From Patescibacteria group bacterium (lineage in GTDB: Bacteria; Patescibacteriota; Minisyncoccia; Phycocordibacterales; SBAW01): a DNA stretch of 34,991 nt. The translations under genes and the position numbers were made by a program. Below are positions 3,732 through 32,117 of the stretch, piece after piece (within the stretch, counting starts at the first letter, position 1; every line of letters starts with the position of its first letter). The notes under the pieces are model-generated. The model did no database searches. It was not told the origin of the DNA and was given only the letters and a program-made list of their open reading frames with translations. Location: NCBI GenBank assembly GCA_016176685.1, contig JACOWS010000005.1:1-34991 (forward strand), read 5' to 3'.

Positions 3732-3797
3732 CGTAGTATACCGGTAGTACACCTGCTTTGGGAGCAGGTAGACTGGGTTCGATTCCCAGCGGCCCGA
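3727..3797 (+). tRNA. tRNA-Pro(TGG)
   Basis: CGGGCCG/CGGCCCG acceptor, CCTGC-TTTGGGA-GCAGG anticodon arm, CTGGG-TTCGATT-CCCAG T-arm. Confidence 0.93.
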
Positions 3798-3889
3798 AAG
3801 CAAGCCGGTTCATGCTGGGTAACCCTCCCAGCGGCCCGAAAGCAAGCCGGTTCATGCTGGGTAACCCTCCCAGCGGCCCGAAAGCAAGT
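3785..3889 (+). repeat. 42-bp tandem repeat (2.5 copies) whose unit carries the tRNA-Pro 3' end
   Basis: CCCAGCGGCCCGAAAGCAAGCCGGTTCATGCTGGGTAACCCT at 3785 and 3827, partial copy at 3869. Confidence 0.95.
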
Positions 3890-4903
3890 ATGGAACGTAT
3901 AACACTTACAACCAAACCATCAGATGGTTATGCACTGCTTGACTCCGGCGGGGAAGAGAAGCTTGAGCGCTATGGCAATATGGTGCTGGCACGCCCAGAC
4001 CCGCAGGCGCTGTGGCCTAAAAACTTGCCGGAATGGAATCACCGCCAAGAGCGGGACCCCACCCTTGGCGGTGGGTGGGACACAGCAGATGCTCAATACG
4101 TTAGAGAGGGGAATAGCGGCCACTGGGTGGGGAATATACCAAAAGAATGGCCGATAGAATTTGGCGGTCTGCGCTTTTTGATTAGGCCGACTAGTTTTAA
4201 ACACACGGGCCTTTTCCCCGAACAGTTGCCCAACTGGGAGTGGCTTTCAAAGTTGGTTGTATCGGTGCTTGCGCTGAATGCCGGTGAGGAGACTGAGCCA
4301 CCCGCGAAGCGGGTAATAGGCTCCGAGGCGGCGTTCAGCGCAAGCACTTCTGCATCAGATAGGCTTGTTTCTGTGCTCAATCTCTTTGCCTACACAGGGG
4401 GAGCCACGCTTGCCGCGGCCAAGGCAGGGGCCAGTGTGGTACATGTAGACGCCTCAAAAACAGCAGTGGCCTGGGCGCGGGAAAATGCCGCCGCTTCAGG
4501 CCTGGCAAGCAAACCTATCCGCTGGCTCGTCGAGGATGTCTTGGTGTTTGTAAGGCGGGAGATAAAACGCGGTAACCGTTATGACATCATCATTATGGAC
4601 CCGCCGTCCTTTGGCCACGGGCCCAAAGATGAGTTGTGGAAGATAGAGGAACATCTTATCCCACTCGTGAAGGAGTGCGCGGAACTGCTGTCGGAAAAAC
4701 CGCTCGGTTTTTTGATAAACGGGTATGCGGCGGGATATTCACCGCTTGCATTTGCCTACAACCTGGAGCCGTTACTAAAAAAATATGGCGGTACTATCCA
4801 GTATGGCGACCTCACGATAGAAGAGCAGGCCCGTTCGACGCACTCAGGGCAGGGAAGTGAGCGGCTCTTACCTTGTGGCATTTTTGCCCGCTGGCAGGCT
4901 TGA
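3890..4903 (+). CDS. Class I SAM-dependent methyltransferase (RlmI/RlmK-like)
   Basis: VLNLFAYTGGATLAAAKAGASVVHVDASK, IIMDPPSFG motifs; ATG at 3890 follows the tandem repeat; longer ORF start lies in the tRNA. Confidence 0.85.
   Translation: MERITLTTKPSDGYALLDSGGEEKLERYGNMVLARPDPQALWPKNLPEWNHRQERDPTLGGGWDTADAQYVREGNSGHWVGNIPKEWPIEFGGLRFLIRPTSFKHTGLFPEQLPNWEWLSKLVVSVLALNAGEETEPPAKRVIGSEAAFSASTSASDRLVSVLNLFAYTGGATLAAAKAGASVVHVDASKTAVAWARENAAASGLASKPIRWLVEDVLVFVRREIKRGNRYDIIIMDPPSFGHGPKDELWKIEEHLIPLVKECAELLSEKPLGFLINGYAAGYSPLAFAYNLEPLLKKYGGTIQYGDLTIEEQARSTHSGQGSERLLPCGIFARWQA
4265..4347. repeat. In-frame palindromic insertion element, copy 1
   Basis: 45-nt core GGAGACTGAGCCACCCGCGAAGCGGGTAATAGGCTCCGAGGCGGC (4288-4332), 43/45 identical to 24224-24268; outer arms GTGCTTGCGCTGAATGCCG / CGGCGTTCAGCGCAAGCAC. 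Confidence 0.9.
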
Positions 4904-7676: not shown

Positions 7677-7678
7677 AA

Positions 7679-7703
7679 ATCATAGAGGCGTCGCCTCTAT
7701 GAT
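7679..7703. repeat. 25-nt palindrome ATCATAGAGGCG-T-CGCCTCTATGAT
   Basis: Exact reverse complement of the sequence at 32093-32117. Confidence 0.9.
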
Positions 7704-22105: not shown

Positions 22106-23185
22106 ATGAACCTGCGAAGTATTAAAGAAGCCGATATCGGCGGCAAGCGCGTGTTGATGCGCGCCGACTTTGATGTGCCCCTGGAGGGCGGGCGAGTGGT
22201 AGACGACACGCGCATCCGCGCGGTACTGCCCACGCTCGAGCTTTTGCACGCGCGTGGTGCTGCTAAGATAATTTTATTGGCCCACCTGGGCCGCCCCGGG
22301 GGCAAGGCGATAGAAGGTCTGCGTGTCGCTCCCGTGGCCATGCGCCTGCACGAACTTACCCGCGTCCCGTTTGAGTTGCGGGAGAATCTGCGCTTCGACC
22401 CGCGCGAGGAGGCAAACAATGCAGGATTTGCAAAAGAATTAGCGGGCCTGGGCGACGTGTTTGTAAACGAAGCATTCGCCGACTCGCATCGTGCACACGC
22501 CTCTATTGTTGGAATACCAACATTTTTACCAAGCTACGCGGGCCTGCGTTTACAAGAGGAGGTTACACAACTCTCTCGCGCACTTACCCCGCCCAAAGGC
22601 GCGGTGGCCATCATTGGCGGTGCCAAGTTCGAAACAAAGGTGCCCCTCCTAACGGTACTTATAGAGCATTACACCCACATACTTTTGGGGGGTGCTTTGG
22701 GTAACGACATAATCAGGGCGCGCGGGTTCCCCGTGGGCGTGTCGACCGTTTCAGCTACGCCCGCTCCTGAAGTGCTAGCCAGAAGTGACCGCTTGCAGGT
22801 GTCTGAGGACGCAGTAGTCGCAGAAGCGGGTGCCAATGCCGAGCGCACTTGTTTGGTAAACGACATACGCGCAAACGAGCGCATCATAGACATCGGGCCG
22901 CGCACTCGCGCGGTGTGGGGCGAAGTGGTCTCGCACGCACCTTTTGTATTGTGGAATGGTCCGTTGGGTGTGTATGAAGAAGGATACAGAGATGGCACCG
23001 ACGCGGTTGCCGCCGCATTGGCAGATGCAAAGGTGCGCGCCGTGGTGGGCGGTGGCGACACCATTGCCGCACTTTCTAAACACTCGTTTGACCCGGCCAA
23101 AGTCTTCCTTTCAACTGGTGGTGGAGCGATGCTCGAGTTTTTGGCACGCGGCACTTTACCAGGCCTCGAGCCGCTGAAAGTGTAG
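22106..23185 (+). CDS. pgk: Phosphoglycerate kinase
   Basis: GKRVLMRADFDVPL, LLAHLGRPGG, VNEAFADSHRAHAS, AIIGGAKFETK, GGGDTIAAL, STGGGAMLEFL. Confidence 0.97.
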   Translation: MNLRSIKEADIGGKRVLMRADFDVPLEGGRVVDDTRIRAVLPTLELLHARGAAKIILLAHLGRPGGKAIEGLRVAPVAMRLHELTRVPFELRENLRFDPREEANNAGFAKELAGLGDVFVNEAFADSHRAHASIVGIPTFLPSYAGLRLQEEVTQLSRALTPPKGAVAIIGGAKFETKVPLLTVLIEHYTHILLGGALGNDIIRARGFPVGVSTVSATPAPEVLARSDRLQVSEDAVVAEAGANAERTCLVNDIRANERIIDIGPRTRAVWGEVVSHAPFVLWNGPLGVYEEGYRDGTDAVAAALADAKVRAVVGGGDTIAALSKHSFDPAKVFLSTGGGAMLEFLARGTLPGLEPLKV

Positions 23186-23193
23186 AGGAGCGG

Positions 23194-23260
23194 ACAAACC
23201 CCTGCAAAGAGAGTAGGACTTGGCCTAGCGGCCCGGAGCGCTCTCTTTGCAGGGGTTTGT
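23194..23260. repeat. Long palindrome, family B copy 1
   Basis: Arms ACAAACCCCTGCAAAGAGAG / CTCTCTTTGCAGGGGTTTGT (20 bp perfect) around 27-nt core TAGGACTTGGCCTAGCGGCCCGGAGCG. Confidence 0.95.
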
Positions 23261-23272
23261 TCGTGTAACAGA

Positions 23273-23632
23273 CTAGAGAGCCGCTCGCAGTTTTGCCGCG
23301 TTGCCCATGAGGTCATTCTTGTCGCCCACGACTCCACTTTCGGGGAAGACCCAAATATGCGCGTGGGCGACCTCGTCGCCCACAATTTTTGAAAGTATCC
23401 ACTGCGTATTAAATGCTTTGCGCTGTGCGAGCGCGATTTTCTTTACCACTTCGAAGTACGCGCCGACATCGGGGACATCCCACACCCATTGGATGTGTTT
23501 TTTTGGGACCACTTGGGCGTGGCCTGGCGCGTGCGGGCGGTTGTCGAGGAACGCCAAAAAATTTTCGTCCTCGTACACCTTGGAGGCGGGCACCTCCCCG
23601 GAAACGATTTTGCAAAAAATACAGTTATTCAT
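23273..23632 (-). CDS. HIT family protein
   Basis: MNNCIFCKIVSGEVPASKVYEDENFLAFLD, HAPGHAQVVPKKH; C-terminal HAHIWVFP replaces the usual HxHxHxxP. Confidence 0.9.
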   Translation of the reverse strand: MNNCIFCKIVSGEVPASKVYEDENFLAFLDNRPHAPGHAQVVPKKHIQWVWDVPDVGAYFEVVKKIALAQRKAFNTQWILSKIVGDEVAHAHIWVFPESGVVGDKNDLMGNAAKLRAAL

Positions 23633-23637
23633 GTCTT

Positions 23638-23711
23638 GGCTAAGCAAAAACCCTTCGTGCAGGAGTAGGGCTCCCGTTCATCTCTCCGGAGCGAAGGGTT
23701 TTTGCTTAGCC
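23638..23711. repeat. Long palindrome, possible diverged family B copy
   Basis: Arms GGCTAAGCAAAAACCCTTCG / CGAAGGGTTTTTGCTTAGCC (20 bp perfect), loop shares GAGTAGGGCT and CCGGAGCG with 23194 element. Confidence 0.85.
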
Positions 23712-23729: not shown

Positions 23730-25490
23730 ATGAAATCCTACCGCCTGCGCGAGCGGCTGCACGACGAACTGATTTTTGACCTCTTGTATTCGCGGGGTAT
23801 CGAGGGAGAGCAGGATATTAAAAATTTTCTCGAGCCGGACTTTGTCCGCGACTCCGGCGACCCGTTTTTGTTGCCCGACATGGGCGTGGCGGTGGAGCGT
23901 CTGCTGTCTGCGAAGAAAAATGGCGAGCAGGTAGCCGTGTGGAGCGACTACGACTGCGACGGCATCCCCGGCGGGGTGATGCTCACCGAGTTTTTGCGCG
24001 CGGTGGGTTTTACAGCCCGGCACTACATCCCGCATCGCCACACGGAAGGATACGGGCTTAACGAAGACGGCCTTGCTGAACTCGCACAGACCGGTGTCAA
24101 AGTTATTATCACCATAGACCTTGGCACCACCGAGCACGAGTCTATATCCTATGCAAACAAAAAAGGAATTGATGTGATAGTTACCGACCACCACCAGGTG
24201 TCCCCCACATCATATGCTACTCCGGAGACTGAGCCACCCGCGAAGCGGGTAATAGGATCCGGGGCGGCATATGATGTGGGAAATTTGCCTCCGGCGCTCG
24301 CGGTCATCAACCCCAAGCGCGCCGATTCGGCATACCCATTCAACGGCCTGTGCGGCGCCGGCGTGGCGTGGAAGCTGGTGCAGGCGATTTTGTCAAAAAT
24401 GAGAGAGGGCGGGCAACCCTTCGACTACGCAGAGGGTAAAGAAAAGTGGCTCCTAGACCTTGTGGGATTGGCAACCCTGTCCGATATGGTTCCCTTGGTG
24501 GGAGAAAATAGGATGCTCGCGCACTTTGGGCTCACGGTGATGCGTCGCAACCGCCGCCCGGGGTTTGCCGCACTCCTAAAGCTTTTGCGTATAAAATCGC
24601 ACACGCTTACCGAGGACGATATCGGGTTTATGGTGGCGCCGCGCATCAACGCCGCCTCACGCATGGACAGTCCGGAAGCGGCCGCCCGGCTTTTAGCAAC
24701 AGAAGACCCGGCAGAAGCGCGCGAGCTTGGCGAGGCGCTCGAAGCGCTCAACAACCAGCGCAAGGGCTTGGTTGCCGCGACGGTCAAAGAGGCAAATCAT
24801 CGCCTCGCGCAAACATCAGTCGAGAGTCCGGTCATTGTGATGGGCAGCCCTTCGTGGCGGCCGGGGATATTGGGGCTTGTGGCAAACTCGCTTATGGGCG
24901 CACATGGCAAGCCGGTTTTTTTGTGGGGTAGGGAAGGAGGTGAAACTCTCAAAGGGTCATGCCGCTCCGATGGCGCGCTAAACGTGGTTGACCTTATGGG
25001 CACCGCCCAAAGAGCTCTGCCCGACGGGGTGTTTGAAGATTTTGGCGGGCACCATGCGGCAGGCGGATTCTCACTCACGCAAGAGCGAGTACACGAGCTG
25101 CCAACGCGGCTCGCCGGTGCGTACGAAACTTTGCGCAAGATCTCTTCAGTAGTTGAGCCGGTTGTGCTGGAGCGCGAGGTAGACCTTGCGGAAGTAGGCC
25201 ACGCCCACACAGCGTTGGCGCGACTGGCCCCCTTTGGCGAAGGCAATCGCAAGCCGCTTTTTATCTTCCCGCGTGTTTCTCTCGAGGGAGTGCGGATGTT
25301 TGGTAAGGCGCAGGACCACTTGGAAATAAAGTTGAGCAAGAACGGAGTGCGAGTACCGGGTGTTTCATTTTTCTCTAGTCAGGATTCTTTTTCAAAAAAA
25401 GTAGAAGCAGGATTGACCGCCGACATAGTAGGGCATATAGAAAACGATTGGCGCGGCGGTCCACGCGTCCGTGTTACGGATGTTATCTAA
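23730..25490 (+). CDS. recJ: Single-stranded-DNA exonuclease RecJ
   Basis: SDYDCDGIPGGVML, VIVTDHHQV, LCGAGVAWKL, INAASRMDSP, GGHHAAGGFSL; carries an in-frame insertion. Confidence 0.95.
   Translation: MKSYRLRERLHDELIFDLLYSRGIEGEQDIKNFLEPDFVRDSGDPFLLPDMGVAVERLLSAKKNGEQVAVWSDYDCDGIPGGVMLTEFLRAVGFTARHYIPHRHTEGYGLNEDGLAELAQTGVKVIITIDLGTTEHESISYANKKGIDVIVTDHHQVSPTSYATPETEPPAKRVIGSGAAYDVGNLPPALAVINPKRADSAYPFNGLCGAGVAWKLVQAILSKMREGGQPFDYAEGKEKWLLDLVGLATLSDMVPLVGENRMLAHFGLTVMRRNRRPGFAALLKLLRIKSHTLTEDDIGFMVAPRINAASRMDSPEAAARLLATEDPAEARELGEALEALNNQRKGLVAATVKEANHRLAQTSVESPVIVMGSPSWRPGILGLVANSLMGAHGKPVFLWGREGGETLKGSCRSDGALNVVDLMGTAQRALPDGVFEDFGGHHAAGGFSLTQERVHELPTRLAGAYETLRKISSVVEPVVLEREVDLAEVGHAHTALARLAPFGEGNRKPLFIFPRVSLEGVRMFGKAQDHLEIKLSKNGVRVPGVSFFSSQDSFSKKVEAGLTADIVGHIENDWRGGPRVRVTDVI
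24204..24280. repeat. In-frame palindromic insertion element, copy 2
   Basis: Core 24224-24268 matches 4288-4332 at 43/45; arms CCCACATCATATGC / GCATATGATGTGGG. Confidence 0.92.
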
Positions 25491-25595
25491 CTCGTTATTT
25501 TAAAGGCTGCTCCTTTTCGGAAATTTCTCTGCATTGGTGTTACACAACATCTCCGACATTCACCCCGCTATTTACAATGCTCTCCCCCTACTGCA

Positions 25596-25633
25596 ACACA
25601 CTAACTCATAGCTATAGCGTATACTTAGTGTGT
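25596..25633. repeat. Palindrome C1: ACACACTAA-CTCATAGCTATAGC...-TTAGTGTGT
   Basis: 9-bp arms; TAACTCATAGCTATAGC shared with 26223 element. Confidence 0.85.
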
Positions 25634-26207
25634 GGGGAAATTAGAGGTAGAACATACCAGAAGGCAAAGACGAACCGACCTTCAAAAGGTGGTGCTTGGC
25701 ACTGTTGCAGCCGCCGGCGTATTGAGTATTGCGCTGGTGGCGCCAAATGTACTCGGGGCTCTTAGTAAGTTGGGAATGATCCCCACGAAAAGACAACCCG
25801 ACTCTATCCGTGCCGCACGCAACCGGTTGGTACATCATGGCTTTTTACAGTACGAAGGGAAGATGTTGCGCTTGACGGCAGAGGGAGAGAAAAAACTTCG
25901 TTCGCTCGAACTACACAACTATCAGATCCCTAAACAAAAACGGTGGGACAAAAAATGGCGCGTCCTTATTTTTGATATCCCTGAAAAAAGAAAATCATTG
26001 CGAGAAAAAATACGCCGTACCCTTGCGGTCATCGGTTTTGTGCGGCTGCAAGACAGTGTGTGGATCTACCCGTACCCGTGCGAAGATCTTATTACGCTGC
26101 TCAAGGCAGATTTTAAAATAGGGAAGGATGTGCTGTATATGATAGTCGACACGCTCGAATATGACGCGCCAATTAGAGAGCGGTTTGATTTAAGTGTTTT
26201 GTCCTAA
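25632..26207 (+). CDS. PaaX-like C-terminal (Cas2-fold-like) transcriptional regulator
   Basis: KRWDKKWRVLIFDIPEKRKSLREKIRRTLAVIGFVRLQDSVWIYPYPCEDLI; wHTH-like region LRLTAEGEKKL; probable GTG start. Confidence 0.75.
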   Translation: MGKLEVEHTRRQRRTDLQKVVLGTVAAAGVLSIALVAPNVLGALSKLGMIPTKRQPDSIRAARNRLVHHGFLQYEGKMLRLTAEGEKKLRSLELHNYQIPKQKRWDKKWRVLIFDIPEKRKSLREKIRRTLAVIGFVRLQDSVWIYPYPCEDLITLLKADFKIGKDVLYMIVDTLEYDAPIRERFDLSVLS

Positions 26208-26215
26208 AATAACAA

Positions 26216-26254
26216 ACGCATTAACTCATAGCTATAGCAACAAGCTAATGCGTG
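26216..26254. repeat. Palindrome C2: ACGCATTA-ACTCATAGCTATAGC...-TAATGCGT
   Basis: 8-bp arms; same core and orientation as C1 but compensated arms. Confidence 0.85.
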
Positions 26255-26344
26255 GTGTTTTTATCCTGTTGAAAAAGGTTTAAAAAACGATGTCAAAAAT
26301 AAAAAAAGAGTCGATTTTACTCTTTGTGCGCTATACTGCAACCC

Positions 26345-29252: not shown

Positions 29253-29267
29253 TGTATAGTGCGCGGT

Positions 29268-30125
29268 ATGCAAAAGTTTTGGCGCTACCGCTCGTACTTT
29301 TTTGTCGGGTTCCTTGCACTTTTTACTTCAGCGCTATGGGTTGCGGTGTTTGCCGCAACCCCAAGCGGTGTACTCACCGTCGCGGTGCTCGACGTCGGGC
29401 AGGGCGACTCTATATATATAGAGTCGCCGACCGGGCAACAGCTCGTGATAGACGGTGGGCCGGGGAGCGCACTTTTGCAGGCACTCCCCGCCGTGATGCC
29501 TATGGGCGACCGTTCGCTTGACGCCATTGTCGAGACGCACCCCGATGCCGACCACATTAGCGGGTTTGTCGACCTCCTTGCCCGCTACACCGTAGATATA
29601 TTTATTAAGCCGGGGATAGCAAAAGATACTGCAACCGCCCGCGCGCTTGAGCGGGAAGTGGCGGATAAAAAAATCTCGACCTACCTTGCGCGCCGCGGCA
29701 TGTGGCTGGAGCTCGGCGGGGGAGCCGAGCTCCACATCCTTTCCCCGGAGCGCGATGTTTCGCGCATTACAAAAACAAACGACGGCGCGGTGGTCGCGCA
29801 CTTGGTCTATGGCAAGACCACTATGCTGTTTATGGCGGATGTGTCCAGTGCGGTGGAAAACCGCCTGGTGTTGCTTGATGGCACGGGGCTCAAGAGCGAC
29901 ATACTAAAAGTAGCCCATCACGGCTCAAAATATTCCAGCGCCAGCGCCTTTCTTTCCGCCGTTTCGCCTGCCGCCGCGGTTATTTCTGTCGGCAAAAACT
30001 CATACGGCCACCCCACAGACCAGGCGCTTTCTCGGCTTGCGGCGTATAGCGGCGAGATACTGCGTACCGACCAGGCCGGTACTATCGTATTTGTCTCGGA
30101 TGGGGAAAACTTTGTCCGAAAATAG
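29268..30125 (+). CDS. ComEC C-terminal-like metallo-beta-lactamase-fold hydrolase
   Basis: VLDVGQGDSIYIESPTGQQLVIDGG, ETHPDADHISGFVDLL, DILKVAHHGSKYSS, SVGKNSYGHPT. Confidence 0.93.
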   Translation: MQKFWRYRSYFFVGFLALFTSALWVAVFAATPSGVLTVAVLDVGQGDSIYIESPTGQQLVIDGGPGSALLQALPAVMPMGDRSLDAIVETHPDADHISGFVDLLARYTVDIFIKPGIAKDTATARALEREVADKKISTYLARRGMWLELGGGAELHILSPERDVSRITKTNDGAVVAHLVYGKTTMLFMADVSSAVENRLVLLDGTGLKSDILKVAHHGSKYSSASAFLSAVSPAAAVISVGKNSYGHPTDQALSRLAAYSGEILRTDQAGTIVFVSDGENFVRK

Positions 30126-30139
30126 TGACAGGCCAACTA

Positions 30140-30216
30140 CCCAAAAAGCAAACAAAAAAGAGAGCGCTCCGGGCCGCTAGGCCAAGTCTTACTCTCTTTT
30201 TTGTTTGCTTTTTGGG
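30140..30216. repeat. Long palindrome, family B copy 2 (inverted relative to copy 1)
   Basis: 25-bp perfect arms CCCAAAAAGCAAACAAAAAAGAGAG / CTCTCTTTTTTGTTTGCTTTTTGGG; core reverse complement matches copy 1 at 26/27. Confidence 0.95.
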
Positions 30217-30222
30217 GTGGTC

Positions 30223-30465
30223 CTAAATAACCCCCGCTGTTTTAAGTGTTTTGTAGGCGCCGCGTTTGGTAAGCGTTTTAAACCCTTTGGTAGAGAGGGT
30301 AACCACCACCGTGCGGTTGAGCTCCGGCACAAAAACACGCTTTTTTTGCATGTTGGGTTGTTTGCGGACAGAGCCGGTGGGGTTGTACTTGGTGGCGCGT
30401 ACGCGGTTGCTGTACCCGCCGCCTACCCGGGAGCCCTTTTTGGTGACTGGACAAATTTTCGCCAT
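30223..30465 (-). CDS. rpmB: 50S ribosomal protein L28
   Basis: MAKICPVTKKGSRVGGGYSNRVRATKYNPTG...RVFVPELNRTVVVTLSTKGFKTLTKRG. Confidence 0.92.
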   Translation of the reverse strand: MAKICPVTKKGSRVGGGYSNRVRATKYNPTGSVRKQPNMQKKRVFVPELNRTVVVTLSTKGFKTLTKRGAYKTLKTAGVI

Positions 30466-30497
30466 AGAGATACGCATGGTACCATACGAAAACACCT

Positions 30498-32088: not shown

Positions 32089-32092
32089 TGTA

Positions 32093-32117
32093 ATCATAGA
32101 GGCGACGCCTCTATGAT
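32093..32117. repeat. 25-nt palindrome ATCATAGAGGCG-A-CGCCTCTATGAT
   Basis: Exact reverse complement of 7679-7703. Confidence 0.9.

Follow-up and report, generated by a model that had tools for sequence, protein, structure and literature searches.

MITEs such as RUP and the terminator-like SPRITE are non-coding, dispersed, hairpin-forming sequences that may act as terminators. Both were named as MITEs in pneumococcus (PMC10969869). Rickettsia palindromic elements (RPEs) are short sequences dispersed in a reduced genome, and many of them lie in frame in genes (PMC10969869). REP and REPIN elements, which go with RAYT transposases, carry GTAG or CGTC tags (PMC3733652). Palindromic sequence can also be shaped by template switching, which is reported to homogenise the arms of inverted repeats and invert their spacers (PMC8604942) and to create and maintain hairpins (PMC8794818).

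Here, we describe a palindromic element with two copies in a 34,991-nt stretch of DNA (the whole stretch analysed, hereafter the window) from a parasitic-type Patescibacteria group bacterium. The source genome (G000) comprises 550 kb and is 98% complete. On balance, we favour the view that the element belongs to a mobile palindromic family of CPR bacteria that has an invariant 29-nt heart, whose arms are rewritten and whose heart is flipped by template switching, and one copy of which has a terminator role at rpmB. No account of such an element in CPR bacteria was found in the open-access literature that was searched.

The copy between a metallo-beta-lactamase-fold gene and rpmB

The features of the locus and of the sister copy are collected in Table 1. 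Perfect 25-bp arms had been claimed for the element in the first-pass annotation, and this was borne out: the arms are complementary at 25 of 25 positions, with 27 nt between them. The core is indeed identical, in inverted orientation, to that at 23214-23240 at 26 of 27 positions, and positions 30157-30199 and 23206-23248 (43 nt) are 98% identical when one is inverted. The placement between convergent genes, a metallo-beta-lactamase-fold gene on the plus strand and rpmB on the minus strand, was likewise confirmed. A 24-nt core occurs at exactly two places in the window, the expectation from 100 shuffles being 0. As RNA, the element folds with -45.7 kcal/mol on the plus strand (z -9.8) and -47.4 kcal/mol on the minus strand (z -9.0), and no shuffle equals either value. 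The inner unit, AAAAAAGAGAG-heart-CTCTCTTTTTT, recurs in further copies of the source genome and, slightly shorter, at the rpmB site of one relative (G012).

Table 1. Coordinates of the two family copies in the window and of the genes beside them
Feature	Position	Strand	Basis
Whole element, palindromic hairpin with invariant heart	30140..30216	- (core orientation)	arms, core search, fold
Left arm, 25 nt, fully complementary to right arm	30140..30164	.	inverted-repeat comparison
Right arm, 25 nt	30192..30216	.	inverted-repeat comparison
Conserved heart, 29 nt, GTAAGACTTGGCCTAGCGGCCCGGAGCGC, zero mismatches to GTWRGACTYGGSCTAGCGSCCCGGAGYGC	30164..30192	-	
Inner terminator-like unit, AAAAAAGAGAG-heart-CTCTCTTTTTT	30154..30202	.	
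Metallo-beta-lactamase-fold gene, PF00753, 3' end at element	29259..30125	+	
rpmB, ribosomal protein L28, PF00830, convergent, 3' end at element	30223..30495	-	
Second family copy (arms 23191-23213 and 23241-23263; core 23214-23240)	23191..23263	+	
pgk, phosphoglycerate kinase, upstream of second copy	22106..23185	+	
HIT-family gene, convergent with pgk	23273..23647	-	

The element has the form of an intrinsic terminator, with an A6GAGAG...CTCTCT6 hairpin at convergent gene ends and a fold of -46 to -47 kcal/mol; its loop exceeds the 8-nt limit of the terminator scan, which therefore does not list it. When the region downstream of rpmB was compared in 29 relatives, the site proved to vary, as the first-pass annotation had advised checking. 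The core is missing there from 28 of the 29, of which most carry an ordinary intrinsic terminator whose loop is short and unrelated; in the remaining relative, G012, the element is present, its inner arms similar (AAAAGAGAG), its outer arms different and its heart inverted. Since most relatives have terminators at this site, the copy most likely occupies the position in which they keep a terminator, and it probably acts as a two-way terminator for both genes. Earlier, it had been proposed that the conserved core points to mobility or to a function beyond termination, and that this would be contradicted by a core absent elsewhere together with unrelated loops in the terminators of relatives. 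Such loops are what the relatives have, but the core is present elsewhere. The proposal itself is well supported, the core being dispersed, in frame in genes, in an rRNA gene and patchy in CPR bacteria.

Distribution and anatomy of the family

The recommended genome-wide search for the core, in which up to three mismatches were allowed, returned 11 copies in the source genome, whereas a control with the reversed pattern gave 0 matches; complementary arms flank 11 of the 11. Within the genus, the core is found in 19 of 35 genomes, with 1-11 copies in each. In an exact scan of one genome per species, at least 105 stretches with the core were detected. Among the matches listed, every named carrier is a CPR bacterium (Saccharibacteria, Kaiser-, Adler-, Nomura-, Jorgensen-, Harrison-, Uhr- and Peregrinibacteria); some records carry no more than the title 'bacterium'. 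Of 378 further genomes drawn evenly from the phylum, only 2 held the core, and the distribution is therefore patchy. The core was absent from the phage, plasmid and viral-contig collections searched. So far as seen, the family is confined to CPR/Patescibacteria.

The conserved unit of 29 nt (GTWRGACTYGGSCTAGCGSCCCGGAGYGC) contains a small hairpin of its own, which covaries (GGCC/GGCC to GGGC/GCCC). The consensus of 144 distinct copies reads GTWR-GACTYGGSCTAGCGSCCCGGAG-YGC. Because a 22-mer pattern served to find the copies, conservation of the 22-mer itself is overstated; at the seven flanking positions outside this pattern, conservation reaches 93-98% for GT and YGC, and W and R are mostly A, the first two flanking positions on the right side having been fixed by the 24-mer scan. 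The arms present a different picture from the heart. In the 144 copies, arm positions 2-29 are paired in 42-93% of cases with all four pair types, and pairing is well above random re-pairing at most positions, reaching the background level by position 30, yet arm sequence is little conserved past the first few bases. In the source genome, the inner approx. 10 bp often read AAAAAAGAGRG/CYCTCTTTTTT, and the outer arms differ. In most copies, the arm adjoins the heart directly, with no residual loop bases, and copies within genes have arms of 23-33 bp. Polymerase template switching would be the simplest source of arms that are paired yet unconserved. Tandem half-elements, consisting of an arm and a core broken at or before the loop, adjoin a complete hairpin in two contig regions (L249:3820-4232; L194, minus strand, 2620-2450). 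In Rfam, nothing above the gathering score was found for the element, the matches in the window being tRNAs only, and the arms gave weak, sub-threshold matches to miRNA hairpins. At 3773-3898 of the window, the 3' part of a tRNA-Pro gene and its tail form three tandem repeats with a 42-nt period.

A simple ORF call places 43 of 145 copies (approx. 30%) deep within ORFs of 150 aa or more, and 11 copies lie between divergent genes, so that termination cannot explain the family. Sorted by class, 57 copies are in ORFs, 50 between tandem, 17 between convergent and 11 between divergent genes and 10 at an edge, counts that are rough because the gene calls are approximate. The four stop-free frames of the heart (KTWPSGPE, RLGLAARS, LRAARPSL and SGPLGQVL) are all used in ORFs, and ORF copies occur on both strands. 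In the source genome, the core is in frame in argS and mpg, where it forms extra loops, and in a nifS-like cysteine desulfurase ORF. One Saccharibacteria copy sits at a native helix tip in what reads as a 23S rRNA gene; a related contig has a short native tip and no insert.

Other palindromes were noted in the same genomes. Within the window, one with a common centre, GACTGAGCCACCCGCGAAGCGGGTAATAGG, and different complementary arms is found at 4288-4332 and 24224-24268; a methyltransferase-like ORF and recJ both read through it in frame (ETEPPAKRVIGS), and just these two copies exist among the 35 genus genomes. Two more, at 25595-25635 and 26215-26255, share a loop (CTCATAGCTATAGC), differ in their arms and flank a PaaX-type gene with a Cas2-like domain (25632-26207). 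In other species, the recJ and mpg loops (L113-L117, L136-L148) contain other, unrelated insertions or hairpins; unrelated insertions or hairpins are also seen in the atpD-atpC spacers (L277, L280), where G001 and G018 share a different core.

Dispersal, arm rewriting and alternative explanations

One genome of the genus, G023, has three copies with common 35-nt arms (GAATTTCCAGGACATTTTGGAC...) and unrelated flanks, which shows that whole palindromes were copied to new sites. Two copies of the source genome (L006 and L010) also have arm sequence in common. Copies were gained in single lineages: that at the pgk junction, for example, is found in the source genome only among the relatives examined. 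Visual inspection of the three G023 copies revealed no target-site duplication; the ends differ between most copies, with no conserved terminal inverted repeats. These comparisons within the genus are between species, mostly at approx. 65-70% protein identity, and include no within-species pair of occupied and empty sites; in an empty-site comparison at atpD-atpC (G006/G021), the spacers are not homologous.

Orthologous loci, defined by a flank match on both sides, gave 23 mutually non-independent pairs, in 10 of which the core is inverted. In one such pair, L169/L247, whose flanks are 94-97% identical, inversion of the core is accompanied by a difference in the inner arms, and the outermost AGRAAAAC/GTTTTYCT is common to both. 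In a trio that is about 87-97% identical, the arms of L216 are unpaired; on the right it has the arm of L218 and on the left one similar to that of L246, and L218 and L246 are each a palindrome built on the arm side matched in L216. L216 could represent either the ancestral state or a product of later decay. At the locus L001/L015, which its ORF suggests to be efp, the heart is the same although the outer arms and the spacer have wholly changed. An invariant heart at orthologous sites with diverged surroundings requires selection or repeated correction, and plain template switching is insufficient for it; it could result from selection acting on each site, from repeated re-insertion or from conversion between copies.

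According to the mechanism that we favour, whole palindromes, arms included, are dispersed to new sites, as the comparisons of copies show. After insertion, one arm is probably overwritten with a copy of the other by template switching between the arms during replication, which would also lengthen the palindrome into the neighbouring DNA and invert the heart, a step deduced from the orthologous loci and from published inverted-repeat behaviour (PMC8604942, PMC8794818). Insertions would persist at sites that tolerate a longer hairpin or a peptide added in frame, that is, at gene 3' ends, in variable protein loops or at an rRNA helix tip. Between the metallo-beta-lactamase-fold gene and rpmB, the copy probably replaced an ordinary terminator, and its A-run and T-run would permit termination from both sides.

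The factor that moves the element was sought among two gene families. A reverse transcriptase (PF00078) is encoded in 9 of 19 core-bearing and 2 of 16 core-free genomes (p = 0.035, for two families tested and uncorrected, including for phylogeny), and no PF00078 gene was found in the source genome, the richest in copies; the association is weak and constitutes a lead only. A bolder and rather doubtful idea is that the heart is a self-propagating palindrome seed. It would be a 29-nt hairpin signal for a putative CPR factor (possibly a reverse transcriptase, or an activity of replication/repair). The seed would spread from one CPR lineage to distant others and build arms from host DNA by fold-back copying, making insertions tolerable in RNA and in reading frames. 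The lengths at argS fit one native arm, recJ (another family) fits both arms being new, and the G023 copies carry their own arms; fold-back copying of the target flank was therefore not retained as the main model for a general source of arms.

The convergent junction, the A-run and T-run, the terminators of most relatives at the same place and the higher frequency of A+T runs in intergenic copies than in ORF copies (40/83 versus 12/43, p = 0.036) would all suit a plain bidirectional intrinsic terminator, with a loop that is incidental or bound by a termination or mRNA-decay factor. We nevertheless consider this unlikely, given that the same loop of 27-29 nt occurs in frame in many genes, between divergent genes and in 23S rRNA, in both orientations, and that the rpmB-site terminators of relatives have short loops unrelated to it. 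Alternatively, the core may have entered pre-existing hairpins such as terminators and rRNA helix tips, in which case both arms would be host sequence. Terminator hairpins are indeed present at the rpmB site of most relatives, the 23S copy is at a native helix tip, and the inner arms resemble terminator stems; however, the general lack of leftover loop bases between arm and heart, the length of the in-gene arms and the arms that travelled with the core in G023 make this origin improbable.

An equally improbable explanation is a conserved structured RNA (a cis-regulator, ribozyme or small RNA) whose loop is conserved and whose stems are free. It would account for the near-invariant heart, the compensatory change within it and its deep conservation over CPR lineages, but the inversions at orthologous loci would place the complement of the heart in the transcript, ORF copies are found on both strands, the distribution is very patchy, and no Rfam family was recognised. 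Finally, the element might be a REP sequence, i.e., a GTAG-tagged palindrome moved by a RAYT transposase, a reading suggested by a heart that starts with GTWR beside an imperfect hairpin and by the three RAYT-like genes of the source genome. Against this very improbable alternative stand the arrangement of single hearts in long arms, which are not REP dimers, and the different short palindrome upstream of most RAYT genes; the tag itself is ambiguous, GTAA being commoner than GTAG at the heart edge. Moreover, over the 35 genus genomes, Y1/RAYT genes are not associated with the core (15/19 versus 11/16 genomes, p = 0.70), and no core was found near them at the eight loci examined; since they do not track the element and have no core at their loci, they were rejected as its mobiliser. 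The palindromes just upstream of the RAYT-like genes of the genus (L304-L311) are mostly short and tight, e.g., CTAGAGGTGACACCTCTAG, and similar ones (ATAGAGGCGNCGCCTCTAT) are located at 7678-7703 and 32092-32117 of the window.

Significance and relation to known systems

If the mobile, template-switched family that we favour is real, it would represent a phylum-spanning family of tiny mobile palindromes in bacteria known mostly from sequence. It would account for some odd in-frame peptide insertions in core proteins and for at least one insert in an rRNA gene. It would also provide a natural record of template switching, in which the fixed centre and the rewritten, flipped arms could be read as an event clock. 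Finally, it would caution against taking every conserved hairpin loop in CPR bacteria for a functional RNA.

TIGR arrays (PMC12045711) were dropped from the comparison because their architecture differs. The family resembles MITEs in being non-coding, dispersed and hairpin-forming and in that its copies may serve as terminators. Unlike in MITEs, it is the centre of the element that is conserved and not terminal inverted repeats, and neither a target-site duplication nor a parent transposon was found. With REP and REPIN elements the family has in common small hairpins, a possible GT-tag at the edge of an imperfect hairpin and both gene-end and intragenic copies; however, REP stems are 5-13 bp long and family-specific, whereas the arms of the CPR element extend to approx. 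30 bp and are mostly unique to the site, no RAYT gene link was found, and the likeness is one of behaviour. The homogenised arms and inverted spacers of the orthologous loci are as described for template-switch inverted repeats (PMC8604942, PMC8794818), but these have been described as a mutational process, while the CPR family is dispersed and has an invariant centre. Like RPEs, the family consists of a dispersed palindrome at many unrelated loci of one genome (11 in the source genome) and has in-frame insertions in genes, among them argS and mpg of the source genome and, overall, 43 of the 145 copies. The host lineage is another one, and the likeness, drawn from descriptions, is one of behaviour, with no sequence relation claimed. 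RPEs are approx. 150 bp long, whereas the CPR family combines a 29-nt invariant, flipping heart with rewritten arms that are specific to each copy.
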